Positions 3,806 through 40,430 of a stretch of 44,241 nucleotides of DNA are shown one piece after another; the stretch's first letter is position 1; each line of letters starts with the position of its first letter. A model generated the notes under the pieces. The model made no database searches, was not told the DNA's origin, and worked only from the letters and a program-made list of their open reading frames with translations. The stretch covers positions 1-44,241 of the forward strand of contig JANLGW010000107.1 of assembly GCA_024653965.1 (NCBI GenBank), written 5' to 3'. This stretch comes from Rhodospirillales bacterium (lineage in GTDB: Bacteria; Pseudomonadota; Alphaproteobacteria; Rhodospirillales; Magnetovibrionaceae). Made by a program: the position numbers and the translations under genes.

Positions 3806-3811
3806 AGTCGC

Positions 3812-5290: not shown

Positions 5291-6441
5291 AAATCGTATC
5301 TTTGACTGTACACCCGGCGATAGAGGTCTTCGTAACGGCGCACCATAGTCGTTAGGGGAAAATGGTGTTTGATGCGCAGCCGGGCGGCTTGTCCTTTGGC
5401 TTTGCGGGTGTCACAGGAGTCCTGGGATAGGCTCACCACGGCATCTGCGAGGGCATGGGCATTGCGTGCCGGGACAATCAGGCCGGTATCATCAATAAGA
5501 TAGGCGCTGTCGCCGACATCGGTTGCCACGCACGGGACTTCTGCGGACATGGCTTCGCCGATGACGTTGGGCGCGCCTTCGCCGTATGCGGAACTCAGGA
5601 CCAGGATGTCTATGGCAGAGTAAAAAGGGTTGATATCCTTTAAGGTGCCCAAAATGTGGACACGTTCTGACAGTCCTTGCTCCTTGATTATGGAAGATAA
5701 TTCCTGATTTTCAGAGGTGATGGAATCACCGCACAAAACGAAGTGGGCATTGGGGACTTTTTGCGCAACGCGTGCGGCAGCCTGAAGGAACATACGGTGA
5801 TCTTTTTGGGGATCATAACGGGATGGATTGCCGATCAGTATGGTGTCTTCAGTGATGCCCAACTTGGCTCTGAATGCCGCGCGTTGTTCGGGACTGTGGC
5901 TGTATACGTTCGTGTCGAAGCCGTTATTGAGGACCACCATGTTGGCTGCATCGTAACCCAGTTCAGTGTGGACACGGCACGCGGAGTGAGATCCGCAAAC
6001 GATGGCGCTGGGCAGCGAGGACGACAAGCGTGCGCAAGCCATGGCCGTGCGGATGGTGCTTTTTTTACTGTGCGTTTCGTCGAGCGTGCTTTGGCGCAAG
6101 TTCCATAACACCGGGGCGCTTGTGGTCAGGCGTGCGGCGATGCCGCCGATTAAATCCGCGTGGTACATCCAGGTTTGTACGAGGTCTGGTTTTTGCGAGC
6201 GTAGCTCTGCGCCCAGATGCGCAACGGGCATGACATTAACGTTGCCTTTAAGAAAATTCATAGCCGATACAATTGTGCCAGTAGCAATCATCGACTCGCT
6301 GAGTGCACCCATATCCGTGAGCGATATCACATTGTTTTCAAACCCATTCGTATCCATCTCGCGCAACAGGCGCAAGAGCACCTTTTCGGCGCCGCCGATG
6401 GATAGACCTGTGATGACGTGTGTGATGCGGATGGGCTTCAC
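5287..6441 (-). CDS. Family 4 glycosyltransferase
   Basis: This 384-residue GT-B enzyme has the classic N-terminal ITGLSIGGAEKVLLRLL loop of GT4 enzymes and the C-terminal donor site SSAYGEGAPNVIGEAMSAEV, where the EX7E-type glutamates sit. LNNGFDTNVY and IGNPSRYDPQKDH are further GT4 marks. The start is GTG at 6441, sharing GTGA with the stop of the upstream flippase gene, so translation is coupled. It is the last gene of the long minus-strand operon. Donor sugar and acceptor are not evident. Confidence 0.9.
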   Translation of the reverse strand: MKPIRITHVITGLSIGGAEKVLLRLLREMDTNGFENNVISLTDMGALSESMIATGTIVSAMNFLKGNVNVMPVAHLGAELRSQKPDLVQTWMYHADLIGGIAARLTTSAPVLWNLRQSTLDETHSKKSTIRTAMACARLSSSLPSAIVCGSHSACRVHTELGYDAANMVVLNNGFDTNVYSHSPEQRAAFRAKLGITEDTILIGNPSRYDPQKDHRMFLQAAARVAQKVPNAHFVLCGDSITSENQELSSIIKEQGLSERVHILGTLKDINPFYSAIDILVLSSAYGEGAPNVIGEAMSAEVPCVATDVGDSAYLIDDTGLIVPARNAHALADAVVSLSQDSCDTRKAKGQAARLRIKHHFPLTTMVRRYEDLYRRVYSQRYDF

Positions 6442-7790
6442 GCGGTCTCGCTTTCGGGGGTGCTCATGCTCTGACGGTATAAACGTTGGTAAAGATATGC
6501 CACGCCTAACAGATGCACGACGTTAACTGCTATCAAGGGTGCATATAACCCCAGTGCAGGAAAGAGCGCAAACAACAATATGACTTTGCCGACAGTTTCT
6601 ACGGCCGTTACGAATACCAGGGGAGATAAACGTACGGTCGAAAAGGCATAAATGGCAGGTAGGCGGGCGATCACCATCCAAAACATTGCTCCGCCGGCAA
6701 GGGGGTAGGCCCATGGTAGATTCGGAGTATGCTCCCAACCAACCCAAAGTGCGACCACACTCTGGCCGAACATGCCAAACCCTATGGCAGCAGCTGTAGC
6801 GAGAATGAGCATCCCCTTTTGAGCGCTGGCGTAGATGGTGCGCATACGTTCGTGTTCCCCACGAGCATCCATTTGAATCAGATAAGGAACCAGAGATTCC
6901 GGCAGTCGCCACAAGGCTTGCATGGTGACGTCGGCAATTTTCCAAACCAAGATGAAATCGGCCACCAGCAGTGGACCGCCCAGAACGCCAAGGATCAGCG
7001 TATCTGCCTGCAACAGCGTCAGCAATAAGGCCCCGTACACGGCGTAGCCCATTCCCATGGGGCCGATCAGGCGGCTTAAAATGGTGCGCCCGTGTGCTCC
7101 GGGCCAGCGGAGGTGTAAGCCTTGGCGTTGCATCAGAAGAAATGAGACAATTCGGGCGACCAGCACACCGCACAATAGGGCCGCAATGACGCCCATCAGC
7201 CCGCCCTCGCCGGATAAAATGGGCATAACGGCGAGCGCGAAGACCACCAGACTGATGACGCTCAGCAGGTTAGCCCAGGCTTGTTTGCCGATGGAAATGA
7301 GAACCAACCGATCCACATTCAAATCGTAAAGGGCTATGACGTATACGACACCCAATGCCACCATGCTCACGGTTTGCGCCCCAAGGGCCGGGGTGTCTGG
7401 GAACAATTGGCCCCTAAAAGCCCACACGACGGCAAAAGCCAGACTTGAAGTCAATGTAGCGTATACAAAAAAGATGATTTTGCTCAGGCCGTAGGTGCGT
7501 TCAAGCGCCTCATGATTATTATGAGCCGCGAGTTCGCCCATGATCCGTTGCGCGCCAGACGACATCCATCCGATCCCTAAGCCAAGATAGTTGACCGCCG
7601 CCAGCATGATCATCAGCACCCCGAATTCGGCTTTTCCGAGGTGGTGCAGATACAGCGGCACTAGCAATATCTGGACGATGATGTTGAGGCCGATATGGGC
7701 GTAGCTGCTGGCGACGCTCCAGCCATAATCAGGGTTGTTGGCAATGCGGCGTTTGATGTCGTGAAAGGCTTCGGTTACGCGGGCAGGCAT
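6438..7790 (-). CDS. Polysaccharide flippase, Wzx-like (MOP/PST family)
   Basis: This integral membrane protein is likely to flip undecaprenyl-diphosphate-linked repeat units across the inner membrane. It has about 12 hydrophobic segments spread over its length with an N-terminal SYAHIGLNIIVQILLVPLYL helix and LGKAEFGVLMIMLA, both typical of Wzx/RfbX-like proteins. The preferred start is ATG 7790, which forms TAATG with the stop of the upstream amidotransferase and gives 450 residues; an in-frame GTG at 7799 would add three residues. It overlaps the downstream GT4 by four bases. With the polymerase-like gene at 10610-13090 it argues for Wzx/Wzy-type assembly. Confidence 0.88.
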   Translation of the reverse strand: MPARVTEAFHDIKRRIANNPDYGWSVASSYAHIGLNIIVQILLVPLYLHHLGKAEFGVLMIMLAAVNYLGLGIGWMSSGAQRIMGELAAHNNHEALERTYGLSKIIFFVYATLTSSLAFAVVWAFRGQLFPDTPALGAQTVSMVALGVVYVIALYDLNVDRLVLISIGKQAWANLLSVISLVVFALAVMPILSGEGGLMGVIAALLCGVLVARIVSFLLMQRQGLHLRWPGAHGRTILSRLIGPMGMGYAVYGALLLTLLQADTLILGVLGGPLLVADFILVWKIADVTMQALWRLPESLVPYLIQMDARGEHERMRTIYASAQKGMLILATAAAIGFGMFGQSVVALWVGWEHTPNLPWAYPLAGGAMFWMVIARLPAIYAFSTVRLSPLVFVTAVETVGKVILLFALFPALGLYAPLIAVNVVHLLGVAYLYQRLYRQSMSTPESETA

Positions 7791-9664
7791 TAGGTGCACC
7801 CCCGTCCGGCTTGGAAACGTTGCAGCGCGTATAGCTTGGCGATCAAGATCGCAGGGACGTCGGGGCTGTTTTGGTCAAAGCGGCTTTTTAGCGTGTGCAG
7901 CGCATCGACATTGAATAGGCCACCAAAATCGTCCGGTGCTAAGAATGCTTCATCGAGGCGCGTTTTCCACGGCCCGCGCAGAACGGCCTCTTCCTGGACG
8001 AAATAGCCGAACCCGCGCTTGTGGGCTTTGAGGATGTCTTCAGGCAATCGCTCCCTTAAAGCGCATTTCAAAATCTGCTTGCCGCCACTGAAGTTTCGGG
8101 TTCGTTTCACCTTATCTGCGTAGGGGATGGTGAGCGCTAGTTCGATCAGGTCTTGGTCCATGAACGGGCATCGGACCTCAACTCCGTGAGCCATGGCGGG
8201 CAGGTCGCCCGCTATGGTGATGGCGTGGGCGTTTTCCTGCATCAGGCCCAAGAACGCAGCCTCATCTATGTAGCTTGTCGGCGCAGTCTCTTCGAACCAA
8301 GGCCCGGACCAAGCCTGAACCGCGTTAAAGTCCGGCGGCGTTTGAAACAGGTATGGCCAGAGGCTTCTGGCCTCGAAATTATAGAGGGCTGTTTTTCGCT
8401 GTCCCGGTGTGTGGGAGAGGACGCGTAGAGCATCACCCAATCGCCCAGTACTAAAGAAGTGGGACATGGCGCTTGCCAGAGGACGCATTAGCGATCCGGG
8501 CAGGGCGTCGTCCAGCCGTGACAGGCTGGCAAGACTCCGCGCCCCATCGTACCCATAAAACACTTCGTCCGCGCCGTGTCCGGCCATCACCACCTTAAGG
8601 CCATCAGCCTGAACGGCCTCGAATAGCATCATGGCATGGGTCAGCGGTAACGCCATGATCGGCTGGCCGTGAATGCCGAGCAACTTGTCGAACAGATCAT
8701 GCTGGCGGTCTGCGTCGAAATAAATTTCTTGATGGCGTGAGCCCAACATTTTGGACGCCCTCCGTGCGCGGACCAGTTCCTCGTCATCTACATTCAGTCC
8801 GAAGGCATAGGTGCGAATGCCTTTAATGCCTTGGCGGTTGAGGCAGTCAACGATGGCGGTTGAATCTACGCCACCAGATAATAACGCACCGATCTCCACA
8901 TCGGCCATACGCCGTCGATCCACGGCATGGTCGAGAGCCTCCAGCACATCGTCAGGGGACGTGGCTTGTGGGCTGAGGCTGGGCCTCCAGTAGCGTTCTA
9001 CATGCGCGACCCGCCCCTTTGCGATCCGCATTGTATGACCCGGAGGAAGTGAGCGGATGCCTTTGTAAATCGTCCAGGGATCGGGAATGTGGCGTACGTT
9101 GCGCAGAAGAAACAGGCCTATAGCATCGGCATCCATATTGAGGTCGATGTCCGGGACTTCAAACAGGGCGGGGATTTCAGACGCCAATGCGACACCTCGC
9201 CCAGATACTCCATAAAACAAGGGCTTTTTGCCCAAGGGATCTCGGGCGCAGAACAGATCGCCAGTGAGCGTATCTAAAATGGCAAAGGCAAACATGCCCT
9301 TAAGTTTGTGCACCACGTTCGCACCGATCTCTTCATAGAGGTGCATGATGACTTCGCTGTCGCTGTGGGACGAGAAGTGATGGCCTTTGGCTTCCAATTC
9401 TTGGCGCAGGTCTTGGTAATTGTAAATTTCACCGTTACACACCAGCGCCAAGGCTCCGTCTTCGCTGAATAAAGGCTGGCGGGCTTGTGCGCTCAGATCA
9501 ATGATGGAAAGGCGGCGGTGGGCGACGCCCGCATTTCCGTTCGCCAAAACAAACTGGCCGTGATCGTCCGGCCCCCGATGGATGAGGCGCTTTGACATGG
9601 CGGCCAAAACCGCTTCGGCGTCGCCGGACCTAGTATGGTAGCTCACACCTGTAATGCCGCACAT
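7790..9664 (-). CDS. asnB: Asparagine synthase-like glutamine amidotransferase (copy 1, divergent)
   Basis: This 624-residue protein has a class II glutaminase domain (about 1-200) and an ATP-pyrophosphatase synthetase domain (about 235-624). ATG 9664 is the right start because it places Cys at position 2 (MCGITG), the N-terminal nucleophile after Met removal, and follows an AGGGGAAG ribosome site; a longer frame to 9736 would bury that Cys. NGEIYNY, the SDSEV stretch and the PP-loop SGGVDST (263-269) are present. The usual SGDGGDE is replaced by AGHGADE (361-367) and the DEPxADSS region by HGQPIMALP. The substrate is therefore probably not aspartate. In glycan loci such enzymes can convert sugar carboxylates to amides; that role here is inference. 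Confidence 0.88.
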   Translation of the reverse strand: MCGITGVSYHTRSGDAEAVLAAMSKRLIHRGPDDHGQFVLANGNAGVAHRRLSIIDLSAQARQPLFSEDGALALVCNGEIYNYQDLRQELEAKGHHFSSHSDSEVIMHLYEEIGANVVHKLKGMFAFAILDTLTGDLFCARDPLGKKPLFYGVSGRGVALASEIPALFEVPDIDLNMDADAIGLFLLRNVRHIPDPWTIYKGIRSLPPGHTMRIAKGRVAHVERYWRPSLSPQATSPDDVLEALDHAVDRRRMADVEIGALLSGGVDSTAIVDCLNRQGIKGIRTYAFGLNVDDEELVRARRASKMLGSRHQEIYFDADRQHDLFDKLLGIHGQPIMALPLTHAMMLFEAVQADGLKVVMAGHGADEVFYGYDGARSLASLSRLDDALPGSLMRPLASAMSHFFSTGRLGDALRVLSHTPGQRKTALYNFEARSLWPYLFQTPPDFNAVQAWSGPWFEETAPTSYIDEAAFLGLMQENAHAITIAGDLPAMAHGVEVRCPFMDQDLIELALTIPYADKVKRTRNFSGGKQILKCALRERLPEDILKAHKRGFGYFVQEEAVLRGPWKTRLDEAFLAPDDFGGLFNVDALHTLKSRFDQNSPDVPAILIAKLYALQRFQAGRGCT

Positions 9665-9674
9665 GGCGCTTCCC

Positions 9675-10613
9675 CTAGCCGTAACGCCGCAGGATGCGGG
9701 CCTTTTTAGCTGTACCAACAAGCACGTTGATCGCACCGGGACCCAGCGTGATCATGAGTAAGGCGGCTATAGTCTCCAAGGGAGCGGTCCAGCGTGCACC
9801 AATTTTCCACAGCGACCAAGCCCGCGCGCGCTGGCCTGCGATGGCGGCGAAGACGGCCTGGCGTAGACGTCGTCTACCTAAGTTCTGGGGAGCGTAGGTG
9901 CGGTATGCGGGTTCGAAGTCTTTGAAGACAAAGTCATAACAGCGCACCACCCGGTTCGCCGTTTGCGGGCTGCACATGCTTGAGGTCATGGAGCCTGGGC
10001 GGTCGGTGTGATAGATGCGTAAGACTTCGGCGCTGACCCACAGGTCTGCGTGTTCGGCAAAACTCAAATAGGTCCACAGTTCACACCCGTAGGGCTCGCC
10101 TGGGTCGCGGTAGCCTTGGCTGACACGAAGGGCATCGCCGCGAAATATTGGCAGGTATTCCCCCATGTGCCGTTCATTGAGCATATCGTCGAAACTGAGG
10201 CGGCCAGTGTAGTCAGGATCGGCGACGGTGCTGTCGCCCGTTTGCGTTTCGCAGGCGCTGAAGCACAGCGGCGCATCAATGGGCCAAGTTTTAAGAATGC
10301 GTGCCAAGCGTGACTGCCAATCGGTAACCAAGGTATCGTCGGCATCCAACAAAATGATGATCTCGCCATGGGAGTTGGCAATGCCCAAATTCATTGCGGC
10401 GCACTTGCCCTGGTTGGGTTCGTGACTGAGATAGTGAACTCCAGCAAAACCGTCGACGACCGATTTTTGAGCCGCGTGATCGGGACTGCCATCATTGGCG
10501 ACGATGACCTCTAATTGCCAGCCTTTGAGCAAGGAGGGCGCAAACACCGACGCCAAGGTTTCACCAAGCGTCGCACTCGCCTTATAGGCGGGGATGACAA
10601 TGGAGACGATCAC
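9675..10613 (-). CDS. Family 2 glycosyltransferase
   Basis: This 312-residue inverting GT-A enzyme starts with VSIVIPAYKASATLGETLAS and shows VIVANDGSPD for nucleotide binding and ILLDADDTL as the DxD metal site (near residue 95). A hydrophobic C-terminal segment (about 275-300) may anchor it to the membrane. The start is GTG 10613, overlapping the stop of the polymerase fusion (GTGA). The gene ends 10 bp before the amidotransferase, whose ribosome site overlaps this stop. The position between a polymerase and an amidotransferase suggests that it acts on the same repeat unit; specificity is unknown. Confidence 0.88.
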   Translation of the reverse strand: MIVSIVIPAYKASATLGETLASVFAPSLLKGWQLEVIVANDGSPDHAAQKSVVDGFAGVHYLSHEPNQGKCAAMNLGIANSHGEIIILLDADDTLVTDWQSRLARILKTWPIDAPLCFSACETQTGDSTVADPDYTGRLSFDDMLNERHMGEYLPIFRGDALRVSQGYRDPGEPYGCELWTYLSFAEHADLWVSAEVLRIYHTDRPGSMTSSMCSPQTANRVVRCYDFVFKDFEPAYRTYAPQNLGRRRLRQAVFAAIAGQRARAWSLWKIGARWTAPLETIAALLMITLGPGAINVLVGTAKKARILRRYG

Positions 10614-13090
10614 GATGTCCCCGCAAATTTTGTGCGGACCAAATTTAGGCTAGCGGCACTGGCCCTGGTGCGGAACTCCGGGTCACGGGCCATTTTGAGC
10701 ATAGCCTCTGTCAAGGCATCTTCAAATTTTGAAGTATCAGCGATCCGCGCCAAGTCTCTAACTTTAGTCGTATCCGAAAATAACGGGCTAGGTTCAGTTC
10801 CCGACCAGATCGATAGAGGGGCTTCCAAAAGCAAGCCGTTGATTTGGTCTTCAACCATCTCTTTAAGCGCATAGACATCGGTGGCGATCACAGGCAAACC
10901 GTGGGCGAGGGCTTCGAGAACCACCATACCGAAGGAATCAAAATAGGTGGGATGGACCAGAACGTCGGCGGTGGATAAAAACCGTTCGGAAATCTCTTCA
11001 CGCGTCAGGCTTGCCGGGTGTAAGCGCACATTGGCGATGTTTGCATCAACGCCTTCAGACAAGTGCGTGACCAAGTCTAGCTCGGCCCCCGGAAATTCAG
11101 CAACAACCCGCTTAAAAGCCCGAAGCAAAGCCGCGCCGCCTTTGATCTCAAATTGGGTGGAGACGAATAAAAAGCGACAGATGTCGGCGGATTGCGTGCG
11201 CGGTTCCGTCACTTTCACAGTGATCTTCGGGTACGTAACAACGGCCTTGGACGCAGCGAGCTCACCATATTCCCGGTACACGCCGTCTAGGCACGCTTGG
11301 CTCAGACAGCGAATTTGTAAGCAGCGGGTGCTTTCCAGGAATGCCTGGATAATCGGACGGTAAAGCCTCACCGCTAAGGTGTTGTACCCGGTGAAGGCAT
11401 AGGGGTTGTCGATGTCGATGATGAACGGTCCCTTGGTGATCAGTCCACCCCACACATAAATTACGGCGTTTTTGGGTGCATCTTTGGGGCGGCGTTTGAG
11501 GTTGATCAGCGGCAATATGGATTTCCACGAGGATCGGGATGGAGTCAGAGCCTGATCGCGACTGACCTGAGCGCCGGAACGCCGTGTGGAGATGTTGGTG
11601 TTGACAGCTTCACTTGCAGGCCAATTGCGAACAGTGTCCAATTGACGATCTCGCAGATAGGCATGGGGGTAGAAGTAAACGCGAGATGTTCCCCACCATT
11701 TTCCTCCAACCAAGCCAACCGTTTCCCCAGCTAGGCCGAAGGCGGCATGAAGGACCGGACGCAACCCGAACATCAAGGCTGCGGGGATAGAAAACAGCAT
11801 CACGCTTTGGACGATAATGGTTCCACCACGGACCCAATTGAACATGTAGATGAAAATGAACAGAGATAGCGCCACTTGGGCTGGGTGGGAAGCTTCATCC
11901 CAGAAAGTGCGTTCTGCAGCACCGAGTAGCCGTCCAAACGCATACGCTATGACTAGGGCGAATGGTAGCCCGAACCCAAACGAGAAATCTACGGCGAAGG
12001 ACATGGGGATGGTGGCGTCGGCAAAGTTACCCTTGAATATTTCAGGGTATAGCCAGTGGAATTGTTCCATACCGCCGTATATGACGGGTTTATTCACCCA
12101 AATTACACGAGGGATAAGGCCGAAGCCAAAATTGAATAGCCAGGATAAGCCTTGATCCACCCCGATCAGCAATTCGATCCAATTGGCTCTTTCAAACAAC
12201 CTTACAAGGTGTTCAATCCCCTCGAATGACGAATGAATTAAAAGAAACGGACCATCGAAGATTTGTATTGATAGGGATAATATTTCTTGGCTTGTGTGCC
12301 CTTCGGATATAAACAGGAAAATGTTGCGCACGAGTTCTAGGCCACCAGCGGCAAATACTGTGGCAATGATGGCTAATATAGAAAATGGCCACATACGTTT
12401 GTCGCGCGTGACCAGCAAAACGATCAATGCCAACGCTGCGCCAGCCATGAGCCGCCGCGTAAAAAGCATTCCCGATGCCCAGAATGTAATGCCGACCATG
12501 ATGGCAAGTAGAAGATAGATGGGCGGATTTAGGGGTTTGTCGGAGTGCACAATGATCCAGCCGATTAGTGCGAGTGTTCCGTATAGTGTAAACTCAGGGA
12601 GCAGCCATAGAGGCCCGTTCCCCATGCGACTGGCTTGGTAGAAGGCGCCGTCGAAGTCCCCTAAAGTTTTTCTGCCGAGTATGAATAAGCCTATGGTTGT
12701 TACACATATGATCAAAGAAAGTCCCGTTGATATTCTTGTGAATGATGGCGATGCCGTGGGGTTTCTGGGCTTGAGGTTTTCGATATCTATCGGTGCGACG
12801 GTGGCTTGTTCCCGTCCCCACATAGCCGATGTCCACAAAAGGGCTGAAAAGAGAACAGCTAAAGACAGAACCATTTCATCAAAATGGTACCCTCTGTCTA
12901 TTGGGATGGTTTGTAAATTTATGAGTTGCTGGCTGACAAAATATGCACGTACGGGAAAGGCAATAATAAATAGGAATGTGAAATACCAAAAAGGTGAAAG
13001 CGCTAATTGATGCGCAGGTTTGATGCGGATATCTCGCGCCAATGCCCAAAAAGGCAGGGCAATGCTTAGTATGATTGCAGATTCAATCAT
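10610..13090 (-). CDS. Wzy-like polymerase fused to family 4 glycosyltransferase
   Basis: This single 826-codon frame combines two modules. Residues 1-445 contain about ten hydrophobic segments and a large loop with [10 protein letters not shown] (326-335), a pattern typical of Wzy-type repeat-unit polymerases, followed by an [14 protein letters not shown] helix. Residues 446-540 form a linker that includes [20 protein letters not shown], which looks like the original N-terminus of a separate glycosyltransferase. Residues about 541-826 are a GT4 domain with [11 protein letters not shown] and the donor-site stretch [20 protein letters not shown] 13090 shares ATGA with the upstream amidotransferase stop. 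A cytoplasmic glycosyltransferase tethered to a periplasmic polymerase is unusual. The module boundaries are visual; the polymerase role is inferred from topology and motif. Confidence 0.8.
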
Positions 13091-15027
13091 GACGGAGCAC
13101 CGTGATCACGCCACCCTTGGAACATTAACACCGTCCACAGGGCGTACTGCCAGTTACGGTGGCCAGATAGGTGTTCTGACCATAGCCCGCGCACGACTGA
13201 GACGTTGAGGTAGCCGTCATTGCTGAGACGCTGCTCAGATAGAAGGTCTTCCGCCCATTCGCGCAGATCCCCCCGCAGCCAGTCGCCGATGGGCACACCG
13301 AAGCCCATCTTGGGGCGCTCCATGAGTTTCTGTGGCACATGGCGGTACAAAACGTCGCGTAAGACAGCCTTGCCTTTGCCGTCGCGTACCATGAAGTCAC
13401 GCGGCAGGGTCCAGGCGAATTCCACTACCCGGTGGTCAAGCAATGGCACACGCGCTTCTAATGACGCGGCCATGGAGGCCCTGTCCACCTTGGTCAGGAT
13501 GTCGTCGGGTAGGTAGGTGAGCATGTCCAGCATCTGCATGCGTCCTGTGGGGTCAGGACGGTCTTGGGCGGTGGTTTTATCCCACAGCACACCTTTGTAC
13601 TCGGTGCCAGCCAGAATGGCCGAGGACGGGTCTGGCCATTGGCTAACTAGGCGTCGATAGACTTGATCAATGCTGTCCGCGCCCAATACCCCGGCAATTT
13701 TATGCAGTTTATCGCCAAATTGTGGGGGGATGCACTTGGACGGGATCATACTCGCCAGTCCGTCCCATCCTACGGGTGGTACGCATTTGATAATCCTTGC
13801 CGCCAGAGACCGTGCAAAGCCGGGCACGAGTTCTGCTTTATCCCAGATACGCGTGGCCCAGAAATAGCGGTTGTAGCCCGCAAACACTTCGTCCCCGCCA
13901 TCGCCTGAAAGCGCCACGGTGACATGGTCGCGGGTGAGGCGCGACAGTAACAAGGTGGGGATCTGTGAACTATCGGCAAACGGTTCGTCATACCAGCGCG
14001 GTAGTTCAGGAATAACCTTCAGCGCATCTTGGGGGGTGACAAACAGTTCAGTGTGATCTGTTTTTAAGTAATTGGCTATGGCCTTGGCGTGGGCGGACTC
14101 ATCGAACGTATTTTCATGAAAGCCAATGGAAAAACTTTTCACCGGTCGGTCGCTGGCTGCTTGCATCAAGGCAACGACGGTGGATGAGTCAATGCCGCCA
14201 GACAAAAATGCCCCCAAAGGCACGTCGGCGGCCATGTGCGTTTGGACGGCATCCATGAGATGTTGTTCCAGTTCCGTCACGGCTTGTTCATAGGAGCCTC
14301 TAAACGGGGTTTTATATCCAGCTCGTGCGATGGTGCGCACATCCCAGTAGTGATGCAGGGACGGCTCTGCCCCCACGCGGGTGGTGAGAATATGACCCGG
14401 CGGTAGTTTGTAGACATTTTTGAAGATGGAATGGGGCGCGGGTACATAGGCATGGCGCAGGTAACTGGCCAACGCATTTCTATCGATGTCTTCGTCAATT
14501 AGGTTTGTTGCACGGATCGCCTTGAGTTCCGATGCAAACAGATACGTATCATCGGCTTTCGCCCAATATAGCGGTTTGATGCCAAGACGATCACGCGCCA
14601 GTGTGAGCGTGCGAGACTCAATATCCCACAGGGCGAAAGCAAACATTCCGACGCATTTCTGTAAGGTTTTTTCTACCCCCCAAGTGGCGCACGCCTCTAA
14701 AAGCACGGCGGTGTCCGAACCGCCTTTAATGAGGTGGCCAGCCTTAGTCAGCTCCTTGGCAATGTCAGAGTAATTGTAGATTTCGCCATTATAGGACAGG
14801 ACAAAACGCCCACTGGCTGAGACCATGGGCTGGTGTCCGCCGGGGCTGCAATCGATAATAGCGAGGCGGCGGTGGCTAAGGGCAACGCCAGCGTCTTGGT
14901 CGCACCATACGCCGTGGTCATCGGGGCCGCGGTGTTCAAGTGTATCGCTCATGCGCACAGCCAAGGACTTAAGACCGAGTCTTTGAGTTTTGGCATTTTG
15001 CGTAAAAAGGCCTGCGATGCCACACAT
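13087..15027 (-). CDS. asnB: Asparagine synthase (glutamine-hydrolysing)-like amidotransferase (copy 2)
   Basis: This 646-residue two-domain enzyme hydrolyses glutamine and uses the ammonia to amidate an ATP-activated carboxylate. It starts MCGIAG with Cys2 as nucleophile, followed by RRLAIID, NGEIYNY and [10 protein letters not shown] of the glutaminase domain. The synthetase domain has SGGIDSS (276-282), DEPFADSS and SGDGGDE, all canonical. GGGGAAA about ten bases upstream is a possible ribosome site. It overlaps the downstream polymerase fusion by four bases. Canonical residues would allow ordinary asparagine synthesis, but placement between glycan genes suggests amidation of a uronic acid or related sugar acid. 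Copies 2 and 3 look closer to each other than to copy 1. Confidence 0.9.
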
Positions 15028-15054: not shown

Positions 15055-16356
15055 TCAGCGCCGCCGTGTTCCCCTGCAAAAGACAATCAACATGGATAAG
15101 GCGAATAACGCCCCTGAGACAAGTGCCGTGAAAAAGCTGAGCGGACGCAGCCAATGATAACTGGTGAAAGGGGTATAGCCGAAATACTGCTGAGGCTGGG
15201 CGATAAATCGCCAGAGTTTATAGGCGTAGCGGGTCATATCCGGCGCATCTATTTGATAACGACCGTCATACCCGCCAATATAGATGATGAAATTTTCCCG
15301 ATGCATAAACGCCACCACGTCAGCGGAAACATCCCGAAAGGACTTCATGCGGACTGCAGGCCCGATCATGCGTGCCTGAATGTCATCTAAGTTGTCGGAT
15401 ATTGCGGCCATGTAGACGTCGGCACCGCTGAGCACATGACCGTTGTGGTATTGCAGATAAGAAATGTCATTGGTGGGGTCTACATAGGCCCAGCGTCCTT
15501 CATCGGCCAGATAGCTTTCGGAAAAGGCATGGGAACCCAAATCCACTGTGCCCATGGCTCCGCCAGTAAATAGATTGCGCGTGGGAATCCCAACGGCATT
15601 GGCAAAGTATCCATAGACCAAAGACCATTGACGGCAAAAGAACTTGGCGCGTCCAGCTTCGCCTTCCGTGAATAATGTGTACGGCGTCAGGCTGTTCAGT
15701 CGTTCGTCTGGAGTGCCATCGGGCATATGATCCCGCACAAAGGTGGTGATGAAGGTAATCTGTTCGCGCAATGGCGCGGTGGCATCGAATCCAGCGTTCA
15801 GCAAAACTTGTTTAGCGGCTTGAGCCTCAGGACCTGTGCGGGTTTCGACGTCTGGAATCCAGCGCGCAAAATCTTGGGGCGGTTCCATCAGGACTGGGAT
15901 GTTGGCACGATTAAGCTGGATCTGATCGTTGGCGACGTTTTGCACACCAAATGTTTCTTTGGGTGCGAAGAAAATGTTGAGGCGCACGGCATCGATGGCG
16001 GGTGATGCGATAGAACAGTTCTGCGGAGTTAGCGTGTAATCAAAGGTCCCCATTTGCAAAGGGAGGGTGGGCGATGCACCCTTGATTATGGCGCTTTCTT
16101 TGCTGTTAATTTTTACGATCCAATCCGTGCAGAGGGAATTTCCACTGAAGATTATTTTTACAGCTTGAGGCTTTGGATTGAGCCCGGCGATGGCAAACGT
16201 GGATGTATTTACTGGGTAAAGTTCACCTAGGGAAGCGGGAATGATTTCGGTTTTGGCATAGAGGTCGGCTCGCGCTTTGTAGAGGTACAAAAAACCGCCT
16301 CCGGAGCCTACACATAGGACAAGCAAAGCCCGAAGGATGATATGATTAAAACTCAT
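15055..16356 (-). CDS. Membrane-anchored transglutaminase-like protein
   Basis: This 433-residue protein has an N-terminal anchor (about 8-27) and a C-terminal membrane segment (about 405-427). Between them is a periplasmic-looking region with a transglutaminase-like core: Cys241 in FFCRQWSLVYGYFANAVGIP, His276 in GSHAFSESYL and Asp293 in YVDPTND. This Cys-His-Asp order and spacing match the transglutaminase/cysteine-protease-like superfamily. Residues 40-160 could form a beta-rich domain. It overlaps the upstream methyltransferase by ATGA and lies 27 bp before amidotransferase copy 2. Family members act as peptidases, amidases or acyl transferases; which applies here is not visible. Association with carboxamide-making enzymes makes an acyl transfer to or from the glycan conceivable, but this is speculative. 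Confidence 0.75.
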   Translation of the reverse strand: MSFNHIILRALLVLCVGSGGGFLYLYKARADLYAKTEIIPASLGELYPVNTSTFAIAGLNPKPQAVKIIFSGNSLCTDWIVKINSKESAIIKGASPTLPLQMGTFDYTLTPQNCSIASPAIDAVRLNIFFAPKETFGVQNVANDQIQLNRANIPVLMEPPQDFARWIPDVETRTGPEAQAAKQVLLNAGFDATAPLREQITFITTFVRDHMPDGTPDERLNSLTPYTLFTEGEAGRAKFFCRQWSLVYGYFANAVGIPTRNLFTGGAMGTVDLGSHAFSESYLADEGRWAYVDPTNDISYLQYHNGHVLSGADVYMAAISDNLDDIQARMIGPAVRMKSFRDVSADVVAFMHRENFIIYIGGYDGRYQIDAPDMTRYAYKLWRFIAQPQQYFGYTPFTSYHWLRPLSFFTALVSGALFALSMLIVFCRGTRRR

Positions 16357-17189
16357 GTATTAGACCTATCCGGGCGCTGACATACTGCTAAAAACGGTGC
16401 ACCAAAGGGGAGGAATCTGTCCATATGTAACGCTGCATCCAATAATAAGCCATATACATTGGGAAACCATTTTCGAAAAGGAATATGCAGTATGACTTCA
16501 CTTAGGGTGATGCAAATAAAATGAAGGAGGAAACTAGCAATTCCACCCATTTTATATACAAGCGTTCTGTCCGGGCACACTCTCTTCGAAATACTACACA
16601 GTGTATATTGCCGCCAGCCATGCCACAAATAAAGCGGAAGTGACCAAGACCCTGGAACCAAATGAACTTGCATTCCCTCTTGCGATGTCATCCGGCCCAG
16701 CTTCTCAACGAGTGCAACATCGTTTTCAATATGTTCTAAAGCAGATGAGGATAAGATCAGGTCGAATGACTGATCTTCAGGCAGATTATGCGCATCACCG
16801 AGAATAAAGATACGTTTAAAGGCGTTTGATATGTTGGTGCTGTGTGTAAATCGGTCCTCAATATCAATGCCTGTATAGGAACCAGTGAAACCAGCTTGTG
16901 CCAAAAGCTCACTCATCTGCCCTGAACCACAACCGATGTCGAGGACCTTAATCGGGCCGGGTGCTAGAAATTTTGGCACTTGTTTTACGAAAAATGCCTC
17001 CGTCAAAACCCGGTTGGGAGATGCGCCTCGTGATGTACTACCTAGACGTTGAGAAAAGAAGTTATGGCTGGGTAAGCGATTTGAGCAAAAGGCAATGTTT
17101 TTCCAAAAGTTTTGCGCAAGATAGAGAAGGCGTTTGCCTAGTGAAAGGGTATCGTCACCGTTGATTTCCGTGTTGAATTTCACAGACAT
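16353..17189 (-). CDS. Class I SAM-dependent methyltransferase
   Basis: This 278-residue protein has a methyltransferase core beginning about residue 80 with KVLDIGCGSGQMSELLAQAG, an acidic GIDIEDR after strand 2 and FDLILSSSALEHIEND as motif IV. The C-terminal part (about 205-265) is aromatic and hydrophobic and may rest on the membrane. It is the first gene after the 474-bp gap and probably the promoter-proximal gene of the operon running down to 5287. Base composition is more AT-rich than in the downstream amidotransferase genes. The substrate is unknown. Confidence 0.85.
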   Translation of the reverse strand: MSVKFNTEINGDDTLSLGKRLLYLAQNFWKNIAFCSNRLPSHNFFSQRLGSTSRGASPNRVLTEAFFVKQVPKFLAPGPIKVLDIGCGSGQMSELLAQAGFTGSYTGIDIEDRFTHSTNISNAFKRIFILGDAHNLPEDQSFDLILSSSALEHIENDVALVEKLGRMTSQEGMQVHLVPGSWSLPLYLWHGWRQYTLCSISKRVCPDRTLVYKMGGIASFLLHFICITLSEVILHIPFRKWFPNVYGLLLDAALHMDRFLPFGAPFLAVCQRPDRSNT

Positions 17190-17663
17190 TTCTCACTTGT
17201 AATAGGTCTTATGAGGAACTCGTTGCGGTTTAAAACATTAGGGTAATTATAGCAAACATATTTGGTCGAGGTGGATACAGTACCCGACGTAACGTGATAA
17301 CCATTGGAGAAATTTATATAATAAGATTCTCTGTCTAAGGAATGTTTCAGAGCATGCAAAAATAGTTGACCATTTGTGCGGGTCGTTTTTTAGAAGGCCA
17401 TATTTTCTTATGGCGCACAAGGCGAGAAACACTCACATAGCTCGTCATGCGTATCATCCAAATGGGCACAGTCGGCCTTTGGCGTCTTGCAAGATTTGTT
17501 GACACAAACGCGCAATCGTTATCAATTTGTCGCCATTTTTCGCATTCTTCTCAATATGACCACCTGATTATTTGCATCCGCAATGTCTTGAGTCTTTCCT
17601 TGTGCGTTGATATGGCCGTTGAATATGTTACGTCCGTGGTGGATAAGTTGAACAGCTTGCTTT
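17190..17663 (-). other. 474-bp intergenic region without a supported gene
   Basis: This is the only gene-free stretch over 300 bp. It lies between the end of the GT9-like gene and the start of the methyltransferase, both on minus. Two short frames (minus 17247-17432, 61 codons; plus 17447-17671, 74 codons) show no recognisable domain or convincing ribosome site and are not called. The region is AT-rich with a candidate -10 element, and no strong hairpin plus T-run terminator was seen. It could be a promoter region, a decayed gene or a recombination junction. Confidence 0.6.
17246..17251 (-). promoter_or_regulatory. Candidate -10 element for the 17189-to-5287 operon
   Basis: The minus strand reads TATAAT here, 57 bases before the methyltransferase ATG. 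The best -35 candidate, TCCACC 18 bases upstream, matches the consensus at only three positions. The call rests on the perfect -10 and on position at the head of a long operon. Confidence 0.35.
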
Positions 17664-18677
17664 CTATTTAATTAATGCGAGGGCAGCTTCCGTAACATCC
17701 TCAATAGATATGCCGTTCATGCATTTGTGCGATTGTTCGCACCACCCCGCATTTCCGCAAGGCGCACAGTTAACGTATTTGCAGAGCGTGGTTTGATGCT
17801 CTGGATAGCCGATGAATTCTGGGAGCGTAATCCCTCCCCACAGAATAAGTGCCTTTGCATTAACGGCACGAGCCGCATGCATCAGCCCCCCTTCGGTCCC
17901 CATGAAAAGGGTTGCTTGTTTTATGACAAGAGCAGCTTCACGGAAACTGGTCTTGTTGGTTAGGTCAATGCACCCTTTGAGGGTTCCCAACCGACCAAGT
18001 CCGATCTGCACGATCGGGATGTCTGGATGATACTCTTTAATGGTATCGCATACGGCTTGCCACCGTTGGAAGGGCCATGCCCGGAGCTCTCCAAACCAGT
18101 CGCAGTTGGTATCAGGTTCGACAACGATAAAAGGGCCATTCAAGCTTGCCGTAGCAAGCAAGTTCTGTACGTGCTCATGTTCAGTTTGATCAAAATACAA
18201 TTTTGGGGTAGCGGGAGTGTCCTTAACACCGAAGTGTTTGGCCATAGCATGTTCTGCGCGTCCTGTTTTCCAAAAGGTTTTCCGGCGTGTTTGGTGTGAA
18301 GCATATGAGTGGCATTGCATATCAATATGCACGAAGTGCTGTCCAGCATTCGCGTGGACCAGTTCAGACTTTTTAAAAATATAACTTTCGTACATTTGCC
18401 GCCAAGCGGGCACTTTTAAAAAGACTTTCAAACCATTGTCTAATATGCGGTCCATTTTTGTTTTGTTTGATATCGGCAAAAAGTGGATATCAGGATTGCC
18501 TTGAAAGACAACATCATGTTCACAACTTTGTGAGCGATCATAGAGGTAGCCAGCCATCAAGTCAGATATTCCCGGAAGAAAGCAGGCAACAGGTTTGGCA
18601 TTATCATGCTTACGTATAGCAGATAAAACAGATGTCCAAATAAGGTTTCCTCCGTATCCCATTATGTTGTCTTTCAT
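17664..18677 (-). CDS. Family 9 glycosyltransferase-like (heptosyltransferase fold)
   Basis: This 337-residue protein resembles GT9 / ADP-heptose:LPS heptosyltransferase-type enzymes. The first residues MKDNIMGYGGNLIWTSVL resemble the GDxxL/VT start of that fold, and FMGTEGGLMHAARAVNAKAL near residue 275 matches the C-terminal GxxGxxHxA donor motif. A Cys-rich end (CAPCGNAGWCEQSHKC) could bind metal. ATG 18677 is chosen because it lies 14 bases past the upstream stop; an open frame to 18788 would overlap the previous gene by nearly 100 bases with no family residues. No clear ribosome site is seen. The sugar may not be heptose. Confidence 0.72.
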   Translation of the reverse strand: MKDNIMGYGGNLIWTSVLSAIRKHDNAKPVACFLPGISDLMAGYLYDRSQSCEHDVVFQGNPDIHFLPISNKTKMDRILDNGLKVFLKVPAWRQMYESYIFKKSELVHANAGQHFVHIDMQCHSYASHQTRRKTFWKTGRAEHAMAKHFGVKDTPATPKLYFDQTEHEHVQNLLATASLNGPFIVVEPDTNCDWFGELRAWPFQRWQAVCDTIKEYHPDIPIVQIGLGRLGTLKGCIDLTNKTSFREAALVIKQATLFMGTEGGLMHAARAVNAKALILWGGITLPEFIGYPEHQTTLCKYVNCAPCGNAGWCEQSHKCMNGISIEDVTEAALALIK

Positions 18678-18690
18678 AAATTGTAAATGA

Positions 18691-19623
18691 TCAGTAATCC
18701 CACGGCACAGGGGTATCGATAAATTTGATGGGGGCGTTGTTTTCGATGAGCATTCTATTTGCGCCAGCCCAAGGAAGCCCCGCTGCAAAAGCTGCCCAGC
18801 GGGAAAACGTGCTCGTTGACGGGCCTATCAGGCGGTCACAAGACATCATTGCGCACAAATCATCCATTTGGTCACCTTCGTTGATGTAGGCATTTAGGCC
18901 ATGAAAGGCGTCTTTAATCTCTTGATAACGTGCATTACTTCTAAATGATTCGTCTGAAAATATAACAAATACGGTTGTCGTGGAGTCGAAGTCGAGATTG
19001 TTTTTGATGTATTCTGCAAACAAGTGTGGAGGAATAAAATTATTGTTTTTTGGCTTACCGCTACTAGCTGCTTGATTGAAATCGCTTAAGCGGCTGTGGA
19101 CGCCTATAACGAGAGAAAATTTGCTCTTCCAAGACTGACGAACGATGGACCACTTTTCACTTAAACTCTGGGGTAGTTCAAAGAACTTAGTTATTTCTGT
19201 TCGATGCTTCAGTACCCATTCTGGACAGCGCATTTTAAAGCCATTTAAGATTATGGTTGCGTGGCTGTCGTTAAAAATACGGAAGTCGTTTGTGTCGAGC
19301 CGGGCGATATCAGGATCCCCACTGCCCCAGTTCTGACACCAAAAATTACCAAGAGTCCCTGTGTTTCGTGGGCGTGTTTTATGCAGAAGTTTGAGAACCA
19401 TGGGGTTGGCAAGAAAGGACTCTGGGAGTGGCGGCATAGAGCCGTCTTCACGTAATGGATAGGTGGGAAGAGGCGTATTGGCGAGCCGTGGAAATTTGGC
19501 GGCAACATCAAGCAGTCCCCAGTCCACGACGGTTTCCCCATACTCAAGGGCAGCGGCATAAACATGGGCACGCGAAAACAGTCTGTTTCCAAGCTGACCG
19601 TTACGATTAATATTAAACCACAT
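18691..19623 (-). CDS. Fucosyltransferase-like protein (GT11-like)
   Basis: This 310-residue protein resembles alpha-1,2-fucosyltransferases of family GT11. NRNGQLGNRLFSRAHVYAAA matches the N-terminal GGLGNQLFQYA pattern, VIGVHSRLSDF matches the HxRRxD donor-binding region with some divergence, and GPSTSTFSRWAAFAAG matches the C-terminal STFSWW pattern. An AAGGA ribosome site lies 6 bases before the ATG. GDP-L-fucose genes (gmd, fcl) at the left end of the window could supply the donor. The HSRLSD sequence lacks the second Arg of HxRRxD, so donor use may differ. The family call is by motif recognition only. Confidence 0.68.
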   Translation of the reverse strand: MWFNINRNGQLGNRLFSRAHVYAAALEYGETVVDWGLLDVAAKFPRLANTPLPTYPLREDGSMPPLPESFLANPMVLKLLHKTRPRNTGTLGNFWCQNWGSGDPDIARLDTNDFRIFNDSHATIILNGFKMRCPEWVLKHRTEITKFFELPQSLSEKWSIVRQSWKSKFSLVIGVHSRLSDFNQAASSGKPKNNNFIPPHLFAEYIKNNLDFDSTTTVFVIFSDESFRSNARYQEIKDAFHGLNAYINEGDQMDDLCAMMSCDRLIGPSTSTFSRWAAFAAGLPWAGANRMLIENNAPIKFIDTPVPWDY

Positions 19624-20456: not shown

Positions 20457-22184
20457 TTAACAGCCAATGGATAGCCCGGGTTGAGCGCGCGTGAAAGTGC
20501 CGTCAAATCCATTCCAAACCCACAAGGGGGCGCCAACTCTTGATTCAATAACGGTTTTGGGGGCTTCACACGATGCGTAGGTAGCGATCTGCCCATCCCA
20601 CTTCACCAAGAGTTTTGTTGGGCGGGAAACGAACCAGCGGGTATTCCATTCCTTAATCGTCAGTTTGTCTGACTCAGAAACAGCCTGGCCCCAAAAAGCA
20701 GACATAGCAAAAGGGCCCATTTGCATATTGGTTTCGATGGCCGGAACCCAACCGTCTTGTTCTGGCCCTATGTATAGGTATAGTGCTTGATCTCCAAGCT
20801 CTCCAAATTCAATTTTAGGCGCATTGTCATGGGCTTGCTGCTGAATGCTCCAGGCGTTGTGCCATTCAGCTCCGCGAAATACAGTACCCATGAGTAAGGT
20901 GCCCCATAAAAGAGTGCCCAGTGTCTTGGTAAGTTTGGGGCTTATGCCTGTCTCAAGAATGGTGGCCGTACATAAGGCAATCAGCATGGCAATCCAGATG
21001 TTTATAACAATCAGCACACGACCGCCAATGCCGGTAGACCACATAACGTAGTGACCTGCGGCATAAGCTACCCCTCCCAAACACAAGCCGATGAGGCAAA
21101 GGACGATGGCCATCAAGACAAAATGCTTGTAGTGGTCTTTGGCGGCATTCAAGGCGAACCCAGAAAATATTAAAAGCGTGACAATCAGTGGTAGTGTTAA
21201 GACGGCAGTTTCCAAAAATGCCATGGGAAGCGGCAATGTGACGGCAATCGCACATGTGATCAAAGCGGCCCAAAACAATACCGTGCCGATTAGCTTGTAT
21301 GGATTTGTTGACTGAGGTTTTTTTAGAATGAACTTTGCAAAAATAAAAATGGAGAGGCTAAAGGCAATAAAAACACAGACTGTTACAGCCGAAGTTGTCA
21401 ACCATGATATGCCCAGGTTACGTGCGCCAAAACCGAACCAGTGAAAAAAGGTTTCGATGAAATCAGCGTTGAAGGCCCGTGAGCCCTCTGCTCCGGTGGC
21501 TCTCATATATCGGTTGAACCCCAAGGCAGAAATTTGAGCCATTCCAGCAGAGGCCATCCAAAAAAGGGTGTGGATATTGTTCCAGCCAAGGCGCCAAGCG
21601 GTAAATGCAATGATCAGAAAAATTTGCAAGTATATCGCTTCGTAGTTCAAATAGCCGATCAAGTTGAAGAAAAATACGCTGATGTAGGGCCAGGGTGAAT
21701 TTGTGGTCCATTTTTCGATCATAATCTGGCCGGATAGGCACAGAGCGATAATTGAAATTAAAGCGATTGTACCGGTCGGCCAGAAGTTGATGGGGGCACC
21801 CCATGGAAAAACAAGCCAGAAAACTCCGGCGACAGAGGCCGCCCATGTGCTTGTTTTGGGTGTAAAAACAAGGCGCAACAAGCTGGAACAGAAGTGGTAT
21901 AGCGCAATGGAAGTGGCGAAGACGATTGCAATGACGTACAGGTGCCAGACCATCGGCGAGGGCGGTAAAATTGATCCCAGCAGAAATCCGGCGAAGCGAA
22001 ATACGGGTCTGTTTTGTGCAAGTTCAAGGGCTGCCCAACGCTCAGCAGAAAAGGCGGGTGTTGTCAGGTCTGGCACCAACAGGAAAAACCAATCGTCAAC
22101 ATAAAAGCCGAGAACGAACGGGTGCCAAGCGAGTGCTGCCAGTGATGCCAAAGCCCAGAAAATATAAACACGTCTATCGACCAT
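20457..22184 (-). CDS. Multi-spanning membrane protein, probable GT-C glycosyltransferase
   Basis: This 575-residue protein has roughly eleven membrane segments up to about residue 440 and a soluble C-terminal part (about 445-575), probably periplasmic. The first loop after helix 1 contains FYVDDWFFL, an acidic pair where GT-C enzymes keep their catalytic Asp. That topology is typical of polyprenyl-phosphate-sugar-dependent transferases such as O-antigen-modifying enzymes. A GtrB/DPM-type polyprenyl-phosphate glycosyltransferase two genes upstream (24144-25157) could make the donor. It starts one base after the amidotransferase 3 stop. No family name is certain. Confidence 0.7.
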   Translation of the reverse strand: MVDRRVYIFWALASLAALAWHPFVLGFYVDDWFFLLVPDLTTPAFSAERWAALELAQNRPVFRFAGFLLGSILPPSPMVWHLYVIAIVFATSIALYHFCSSLLRLVFTPKTSTWAASVAGVFWLVFPWGAPINFWPTGTIALISIIALCLSGQIMIEKWTTNSPWPYISVFFFNLIGYLNYEAIYLQIFLIIAFTAWRLGWNNIHTLFWMASAGMAQISALGFNRYMRATGAEGSRAFNADFIETFFHWFGFGARNLGISWLTTSAVTVCVFIAFSLSIFIFAKFILKKPQSTNPYKLIGTVLFWAALITCAIAVTLPLPMAFLETAVLTLPLIVTLLIFSGFALNAAKDHYKHFVLMAIVLCLIGLCLGGVAYAAGHYVMWSTGIGGRVLIVINIWIAMLIALCTATILETGISPKLTKTLGTLLWGTLLMGTVFRGAEWHNAWSIQQQAHDNAPKIEFGELGDQALYLYIGPEQDGWVPAIETNMQMGPFAMSAFWGQAVSESDKLTIKEWNTRWFVSRPTKLLVKWDGQIATYASCEAPKTVIESRVGAPLWVWNGFDGTFTRAQPGLSIGC

Positions 22185-22185
22185 C

Positions 22186-24108
22186 TTAAAAAACTACTCT
22201 TTGCAGGTCCGTCAGTGGCGGATGAGGGTTCTTGCGTAAAATCCGTGCGTGATACCAAGCGACCAATGTCATAAGGCCCCACAACTCAAAACCCAACTGG
22301 GCTTTACCAGACATGTGTAGGTCTTTTGCTTTGATGACCTCGGCAGCATTTAAAAAGGATAGGTCCTTTAGCCGCGTTGGCGACAAGAGGTCTTCCGCCA
22401 AGTGGCGGGCCTCATCGCGGAGCCAGCGGTGAATGGGAATGCTAAACCCTTGCTTCTTGGCTTCGCTGACGTGGTGCCCGAGTTTGCGCTCGGCTAGTTT
22501 CCTGAGGGCATGCTTTGGCTTGCCGAACAGGGGTGTTTTCAGATGATCAGGGAGCGCCAATGCAAATTCAGCCAGCGGAGGGAAGAGGAAGGGTGCTCGT
22601 GCCTCTAAGCCAAATGCCATGGTCATGCGGTCGGTTTTGGTCAAGATATCATTGGGGAGGTAATCGGCAATATCAGCCTTCTGCAAATCGAGAAGGCTGG
22701 GGTAGGGGGCAAGGTTGTGCCGAGAGGTCAATAGTTTAAGTGCATCTTGTGCGGCTTTCTTGGCGGCATCGTCAAAAACAAAGTTCTTGGCATCATGGGG
22801 TAGCCAAGTGCCGTTCCAGGAAAAATGTGCTTGAGCGGAATTCAGGTTTGCCGCACGCAAAAAACGCGATGCTTTGTAACTGGTGCTGACTTTTGTCGGA
22901 GATACGGGGATCATCTTTGCTAACCCGCTCAGTGCATTACGAATGGGTTGGGGCAAGAAGCGCATCGTTGAGCGGTGAATGGCGGTCGCTTGGTATGTTA
23001 AATAGCCGCCGAATAGTTCATCGCCACCATCGCCGCTGAGCGCGACTTTATAATCCTTTGCAACTTCCCGCGCCAAAGTCCACACGGCAAGTGCCGAGGA
23101 ATCGGCAAGCGGGTCATCCAGCCGTTCAACGATGGATACAAAATCCTCTAAGGCATCGCTGGTTAAAGTCACGCGGCGTATTTTTAGGCCGAGGGATTGA
23201 GCGACCCGTTTTGCATTGCTAAATTCGCTATACGTTGGAACATCAAAATCAAGACAGTAAGCGTCCTTGATGTCACTCTGACGAACAGCACTCTCGGCAA
23301 CCAAGGATGAATCAATTCCTCCGGACAAAAAAATGGTGACAGGGACATCGCTACGCAAAGCCATGCTGACGGCGTTGTCCACGAGATTTTCTAATTGACC
23401 AAGAGCTTCTTCTAAGTTGGCGTTGATATTGGGATGTTCGGGAGGAGTCCAATAACGATCTTCTGTAATACCATTGATGCTGTATCTCCTCCATGTGGCG
23501 GGAGGGAGACGTCTAATGCCTTTTGCCAAGGTGCGATTCCCTGGCACATAGTTGAGGCACAAATATCCTCCTAATGCTTCAAGATCGATGTCGGCATGAA
23601 AATCTTTAAGACGGAAAAATGCGCCGAGTTCTGAAGAAAATGTTACACCGCCATTCTCTTCAAAAAGAAACAAAGGTTTTTCGCCGAAACGGTCACGTGC
23701 GACAAATAAGTCTCCGTTGGTGAGGTCAGAGATTGCAAAGGCAAACATGCCCTGTAACTTCAGACATACATCTGCACCCCACTTGCGATAGCCTTCAATA
23801 ATGACTTCTGTATCGGAGTTGGTTATGAAGGTGTGGCCATAAGATTGTAACTCAGACTTTAGCTCCAGATAATTATAGATTTCACCATTGAACACAATCA
23901 CATATTGGCGGTCATGGCTGCTCATAGGCTGCAGACCATTCGCAATATCAATGATGGACAGTCTGCGATGACCGAAAAAAAAGTAATCTTCCGACCACCA
24001 TGCACCACTGTCCGGACCTCTATGTTTTAGGTCATTGGTCGCGGCGCACAGGTGTTGGAGATCACCGAGGTTGCGATCAGGAGCGTATCGACCAAACATA
24101 CCGCACAT
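22186..24108 (-). CDS. asnB: Asparagine synthase (glutamine-hydrolysing)-like amidotransferase (copy 3)
   Basis: This 640-residue enzyme begins MCGMFG with Cys2 as glutaminase nucleophile and has RRLSIIDIANGLQPM, NGEIYNY (74-80) and NSDTEVIIEGY. The synthetase domain shows SGGIDSS (262-268), DDPLADSS and SGDGGDE, close to canonical. The C-terminal basic segment AKKQGFSIPIHRWLRDE is usual for the family. It is tightly followed by the GT-C gene. Three such genes in one glycan locus make carboxylate amidation of sugar acids more likely than housekeeping asparagine synthesis. Its AT-rich sequence differs from copies 1 and 2, suggesting separate acquisition. Confidence 0.9.
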   Translation of the reverse strand: MCGMFGRYAPDRNLGDLQHLCAATNDLKHRGPDSGAWWSEDYFFFGHRRLSIIDIANGLQPMSSHDRQYVIVFNGEIYNYLELKSELQSYGHTFITNSDTEVIIEGYRKWGADVCLKLQGMFAFAISDLTNGDLFVARDRFGEKPLFLFEENGGVTFSSELGAFFRLKDFHADIDLEALGGYLCLNYVPGNRTLAKGIRRLPPATWRRYSINGITEDRYWTPPEHPNINANLEEALGQLENLVDNAVSMALRSDVPVTIFLSGGIDSSLVAESAVRQSDIKDAYCLDFDVPTYSEFSNAKRVAQSLGLKIRRVTLTSDALEDFVSIVERLDDPLADSSALAVWTLAREVAKDYKVALSGDGGDELFGGYLTYQATAIHRSTMRFLPQPIRNALSGLAKMIPVSPTKVSTSYKASRFLRAANLNSAQAHFSWNGTWLPHDAKNFVFDDAAKKAAQDALKLLTSRHNLAPYPSLLDLQKADIADYLPNDILTKTDRMTMAFGLEARAPFLFPPLAEFALALPDHLKTPLFGKPKHALRKLAERKLGHHVSEAKKQGFSIPIHRWLRDEARHLAEDLLSPTRLKDLSFLNAAEVIKAKDLHMSGKAQLGFELWGLMTLVAWYHARILRKNPHPPLTDLQRVVF

Positions 24109-35080: not shown

Positions 35081-35101
35081 TGATCTGTTCGCTTTATCTG
35101 T

Positions 35102-36001: not shown

Positions 36002-36005
36002 TATA

Positions 36006-36695: not shown

Positions 36696-36699
36696 TCGT

Positions 36700-37638: not shown

Positions 37639-37683
37639 TATATCTGATTGTCCCGACAATGATGAACTGGGTGGCTTTGGTGT

Positions 37684-39219: not shown

Positions 39220-39251
39220 GTCGGCCTCATATATATAAAATGTCTGAGAAA

Positions 39252-40352: not shown

Positions 40353-40399
40353 AATAAGAAATCCAAAAGGGCTGGGGATGACGATGTGCTTGATAGAGT

Positions 40400-40430
40400 G
40401 CTATGCAGGTTTGAGATCATGTTGCATAGC
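40400..40430. repeat. 7-bp inverted repeat across the legB stop
   Basis: GCTATGC (40400-40406) and GCATAGC (40424-40430) flank 17 bases that include the legB stop (40417-40419). There is no T-run on either side and the loop is long, so it is not a convincing terminator. It sits in the 64-bp legB to oxidoreductase gap region. Confidence 0.4.

Follow-up and report, generated by a model that had tools for sequence, protein, structure and literature searches.

The window analysed here is a 44,241 bp stretch of a Rhodospirillales contig (JANLGW010000107.1), and its reverse strand carries, within a cluster of surface-polysaccharide genes, the gene for a membrane-anchored, transglutaminase-fold protein (TGL). 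The names TGL, MT, AsnB1, AsnB3 and PolGT4 are labels coined in this analysis, and the positions of these genes are given in Table 1. The MT and TGL ORFs share 4 bp, and TGL ends 27 bp before the AsnB1 ORF. By hydropathy, TGL has a hydrophobic segment at each end (residues 5–25 and 405–430). Both observations agree with the first-pass annotation of this DNA, which had proposed two membrane anchors and had placed a methyltransferase and an amidotransferase-like gene in the operon of TGL. The hydrophobic half of PolGT4, which is its N-terminal one and is followed by the GT4 half, we take to be polymerase-like.

Table 1. Genes and features at the TGL locus (positions are those of the window).
Feature	Position	Strand	Remarks
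MT, SAM methyltransferase	16353..17189	(-)	upstream of TGL
TGL, membrane-anchored transglutaminase-fold protein	15055..16356	(-)	433 aa, ATG start
Transglut_core (PF01841) match in TGL	15475..15783	(-)	residues 192-294; six-frame search
TGL triad codon C241	15634-15636	(-)	
TGL triad codon H276	15529-15531	(-)	
TGL triad codon D293	15478-15480	(-)	
AsnB1, AsnB-like glutamine amidotransferase	13087..15027	(-)	downstream of TGL
PolGT4, hydrophobic part fused to GT4 glycosyltransferase	10610..13090	(-)	hydrophobic part: no family match
GT2 glycosyltransferase of conserved block	9675..10613	(-)	
AsnB3, second AsnB-like gene of conserved block	7790..9736	(-)	
Wzx-like protein of conserved block	6438..7799	(-)	27 bits (cut-off 300 bits)

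Between MT and the GT9-like gene upstream of it on the same strand lie 474 bp with no listed ORF of 100 aa (17190–17663), possibly the promoter region of the MT-TGL-AsnB1 unit; a consensus scan of this segment gave no more sites than expected. The GT9-like ORF itself (17664–18788, reverse strand) is listed with a TTG start, which gives it a 98 bp overlap with the next gene. Its relatives start at a motif inside the ORF, so the true start is probably further downstream. AsnB1 and AsnB3 share the cluster with a third AsnB-like gene (22186–24108, reverse strand), and AsnB1 scores 596.9 bits against the XrtA/PEP-CTERM amidotransferase model, under its cut-off of 816.9. A hydrophobic protein of 575 aa (20457–22184) and one of 400 aa next to the MBOAT gene (25981–27183), both on the reverse strand, have no Pfam match. 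The reverse-strand genes from 34343 to 43694 encode NeuB (PF03102, with cupin), a cytidylyltransferase, a UDP-GlcNAc 2-epimerase type protein, a CBS plus nucleotidyltransferase protein and Gfo/Idh proteins. This is a nonulosonic-acid pathway within the cluster of TGL, presumably of legionaminic type.

The only Pfam family matched by the TGL protein at E up to 1 is Transglut_core (residues 193–294, E 6e-4). The score of 20.5 bits is under the curated cut-off of 23 and the six-frame search of the genome gave 23.8 bits, above it, which makes for a borderline score overall. The TGLs of genomes G015 and G027 score 23.2 and 26.8 bits, both over the cut-off, and 9 of the 10 TGL homologues match the family at E up to 0.1. 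NCBIfam assigns TGL no family, and a six-frame search of its own genome (E up to 0.01) found no second Transglut_core match.

A triad of Cys241, His276 and Asp293 had been proposed from the sequence of the window, and the family alignment places it in register. As an independent test of the residues, 30 Transglut_core domains from the same taxonomic order were compared; the three triad columns hold C in 30, H in 29 and D in 30. An HMM of these domains, the E-values of which were calculated for a 10-sequence set only, puts the columns on C241, H276 and D293 of TGL. The first-pass annotation had made its reading depend on the conservation of Cys241: all 10 TGL homologues have C241 and H276, and D293 is found in all nine that are readable, the tenth codon being unreadable. 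C76 and C114 are likewise invariant (10/10), and may form a disulfide.

Structure comparison, also suggested at that stage, bore out the fold for one model and not for the other. An AlphaFold model of full-length TGL (4 sequences; mean pLDDT 53, poor) retrieved transglutaminase 3 (TG3) first in Foldseek (E 2.5e-4), followed by 3isr, a Cytophaga putative cysteine protease that is among the top rows (E 2.7e-4), and with LapG among the matches (E 3e-3). VIA-align found TG2 as the best match of this model (Z 11.4, rmsd 4.9, 194 aligned), and the comparison with mouse PNGase gave Z 10.3 (rmsd 4.3, 176 aligned). In the model, C241 opens a helix, H276 opens a strand and D293 closes the strand that follows. 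For the model of the catalytic domain only (pLDDT 65), even the best Foldseek match, to 3kd4, was not significant (E 0.51), and the fold assignment therefore rests on the full-length model together with the sequence. TGL represents a conserved and membrane-anchored line within the transglutaminase superfamily that occurs in glycan clusters, and neither Pfam nor NCBIfam has a family for it.

Searches of PDB sequences with the TGL protein, the 10-member profile, the domain profile and the G027 domain gave no usable match. The match of TGL to the PDB sequence of TG3 was discarded (E 0.35 or worse); by TG3 numbering it presumably falls outside the TG3 catalytic site. The phmmer match at E 5e-6 was to a designed Kelch-like repeat; no single stretch of it passes, and it was judged a repeat artefact.

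TGL is rare: it is present in 6 of 60 relatives, its own genome counted, and across the order in 10 of the 317 genomes searched. Outside its own genome it was absent from the 385 class genomes and 398 phylum genomes sampled, and viral contigs and plasmids gave no match. Among named records, it was found in two Magnetovibrio MAGs and one Rhodospirillales MAG. Two types of member can be told apart. Six glycan-type TGLs are 42–69% identical to the TGL of the window, and four distant ones, from genomes of one other genus, are 26–29% identical to it. By the ORF lists, all four distant genes lie in the guaA region with no glycan gene nearby, and none of the four loci has MT, AsnB1 or PolGT4 beside TGL, so the family can do without this glycan. 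In the two of these four genomes in which it was read, a protein of 181–195 aa with a hydrophobic N-terminal start and no Pfam match is encoded downstream of TGL (L027:10825-11412 and L028:10525-11070).

Because the distant TGLs are not in glycan loci, which suggests a protein substrate, a protease reading stays in play. TGL would then be a periplasmic cysteine protease or amidase, similar to HvyA or LapG, that cuts a polymerisation or export protein and so controls the display of the glycan. LapG is indeed among the Foldseek matches given above, and the transglutaminase-like protein HvyA, from the capsule-export locus of Caulobacter, is described as restricting capsulation in a way that requires its C, H and D residues (PMC4241560). 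TGL differs from HvyA and LapG in family, as PF06035 is not matched by TGL at E up to 1 or, at E up to 0.1, by any of the 10 members, and a separate PF06035 gene lies elsewhere in the same genome (C2, 67.3 bits). HvyA is, in addition, described as soluble and anchorless, and TGL is hydrophobic at both ends. We regard this protease reading as rather unlikely, if worth keeping in view.

The genes around TGL, which the first-pass annotation had placed in a glycan operon, recur as a block that includes the GT2, PolGT4 and Wzx-like genes. The order MT-TGL-AsnB1-PolGT4-GT2-AsnB3-Wzx-like is preserved in genomes G000, G004 and G011. G027 and G051 have the same block from MT to the Wzx-like gene, with one additional gene separating AsnB1 from PolGT4. 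In G015, TGL and MT are arranged tail to tail amid transporter genes, and AsnB1-PolGT4-GT2-AsnB3 is found on another contig. AsnB1 adjoins TGL in five of the six glycan-type members and, by the ORF lists, in none of the four distant ones. In G013, AsnB1 comes immediately after MT and TGL is absent, and in G007 and G009 AsnB1-PolGT4 is present with no TGL or MT adjoining.

Of the 71 genomes tested, 9 carry AsnB1 at 1252 bits or more, and PolGT4 is present in 9 of 317, the G089 copy of PolGT4 being in two pieces (separate, overlapping ORFs at L060:2273-3748 and 3619-4599); both sets include all six glycan-type TGL genomes. MT orthologues over 400 bits occur in seven of the 317 genomes, six of which have TGL, so that MT tracks TGL more tightly than AsnB1 does. 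A glycan-type TGL thus implies MT, AsnB1 and PolGT4, and none of the three implies TGL. Co-occurrence with AsnB-like genes, which had been put forward as a check on the earlier reading, holds in one direction: AsnB1 is in 6/6 glycan-type genomes, but three of the nine AsnB1 genomes (G007, G009 and G013) lack TGL. For the glycan-type members, neither this co-occurrence nor the conservation of Cys241 speaks against the earlier reading. Plain AsnB co-occurrence was dropped as evidence because AsnB-family genes are in 53 of the 71 genomes tested, and only the pattern at the level of orthologues was retained. The gap in AsnB1 scores is partly built in, since 8 of the 9 top genomes had contributed to the A8 profile. 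Hypergeometric values for chance overlap are small for the co-distribution of TGL, and far too optimistic because the genomes share kinship. None of the 36 window proteins compared had a homologue (E 1e-5) in the roughly 1.5 kb on either side of 30 Transglut_core loci found elsewhere in the order.

MT is the tightest neighbour of TGL, adjoining it in all six glycan-type genomes, even in G015 where AsnB1 lies elsewhere, and TGL could for this reason edit a methyl ester or other group laid down by MT rather than the product of AsnB. The histories of the two genes fit this poorly. The MT of G000 is 55% identical to that of G011 and 41% to that of G004, and the TGL of G000 is 47% identical to that of G011 and 69% to that of G004, its closest. 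G000 and G011 have one type of MT, and G004, G015 and G013 another. These incongruent identities indicate that MT and TGL do not share one common history, as recombination within glycan loci would give, and that TGL tolerates different MT types. With G013, which retains MT without TGL, they also weaken the idea of a strict MT-TGL partnership. Editing of an MT product appears very improbable on balance.

The dependence of TGL on AsnB1, which runs one way, is what would be expected if a tuner depends on its writer and the writer can do without the tuner. In Bordetella, uronamides are made by an AsnB-like enzyme. The periplasmic transglutaminase-superfamily protein WbmE of Bordetella bronchiseptica deamidates the uronamides of the O-chain (King et al. 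2009, cited in PMC3507681). Together, the one-way dependence and the WbmE precedent lead us to favour, tentatively and at somewhat less than even confidence, the reading that TGL is a periplasm-facing deamidase which acts on the polysaccharide of this cluster after assembly, in the manner of WbmE. The fold assignment, the triad, its conservation, the operon and the co-distribution come from the analysis itself; the periplasmic orientation, the amide substrate and water as the acceptor are its putative elements.

In such a pathway, one or more cytoplasmic AsnB-like enzymes would convert sugar carboxylates to carboxamides ahead of export. TGL, anchored in the inner membrane and with its Cys-His-Asp site facing the periplasm, would edit the polysaccharide after flipping and polymerisation: Cys241 would attack part of the carboxamides with release of ammonia, and water would resolve the thioester to a free acid. 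AsnB1 would thus be the writer of the carboxamides and TGL their partial eraser, setting the charge of the glycan. The hydrophobic ends and the invariant C76 and C114 are sequence features that fit a periplasmic domain. Two nucleotide-sugar 6-dehydrogenase matches over cut-off are present in the genome, a non-specific observation since 13 of 14 control genomes also have them; with the NeuB-type pathway they make carboxyl sugars plausible, and no more. Counted against deamidation are the distant TGLs beside guaA, the split locus of G015, the tighter link to MT, the commonness of AsnB genes, the partly built-in score gap, the kinship of the genomes and the domain-only model that did not retrieve the fold significantly.

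The first-pass annotation had instead suggested, as speculation, that TGL attaches amines or proteins to the polysaccharide with amide groups as the acyl donors, which would be a new way of tailoring or anchoring a glycan. A transamidase would form a thioester with a glycan carboxamide (or ester) and pass the acyl group to an amine, protein or peptidoglycan, thereby decorating or anchoring the polymer. The fold and triad are as in true transglutaminases, and for TgpA, a periplasmic, membrane-tethered PF01841 protein, in vitro transglutaminase activity is described (PMC3507681). However, TGL has no candidate acceptor gene conserved with it, loci with AsnB1 and PolGT4 can do without it, and the precedent for chemistry on glycan amides is hydrolysis by WbmE. 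With three genomes having AsnB1 and no TGL, and the distant TGLs having no glycan neighbours, the idea is not of a new kind, transamidation is not the most probable chemistry, and no result points to it in particular. We consider a transamidase of this general kind distinctly unlikely. The narrower form, in which the acyl donors are carboxamides placed by AsnB1 and the exported polysaccharide is joined covalently by TGL to an amine on a protein, peptidoglycan or another chain, is given still less weight; if true, a Gram-negative surface glycan would be anchored by a route that differs from attachment through lipid or ligase.

Should TGL indeed remove amides from the assembled polymer, Bordetella would not be alone in tuning surface charge at this stage, and here the task would fall to an enzyme built differently from WbmE, with an AsnB-like opposing activity in the same operon. 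Should it transamidate, a glycan would be linked to the envelope in a new manner. To our knowledge, the products of AsnB-like genes in polysaccharide clusters are mostly unknown, and a paired eraser would offer a direct route to identifying what these enzymes make.

Searches of the open-licence literature listed no paper that, by its title, abstract or passages, deals with the TGL family or with the pairing of a transglutaminase-like gene and an amidotransferase in one glycan operon. TGL can be set beside three described proteins. Like TgpA of Pseudomonas aeruginosa, an inner-membrane protein whose periplasmic PF01841 domain is flanked by membrane segments (PMC3507681), TGL has its PF01841 domain between two hydrophobic segments. 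TgpA differs in having six helices and DUF3488, which was not found in TGL (Pfam, E up to 1), and in being critical for viability, whereas TGL is absent from most relatives. HvyA of the alphaproteobacterium Caulobacter crescentus is also a transglutaminase-like C/H/D protein of a capsule locus (PMC4241560), but is described as a soluble periplasmic member of the BTLCP family (PF06035), while TGL matches PF01841 only. WbmE, the gene of which is located in the O-antigen locus (PMC3849452), has been aligned with other C/H/D triads (PMC3507681), and by its published description it shares with TGL the superfamily, the triad and a surface-polysaccharide locus. Compared by description rather than by sequence, TGL is distinguished from WbmE by the anchors at both ends and the gene order MT-TGL-AsnB1.
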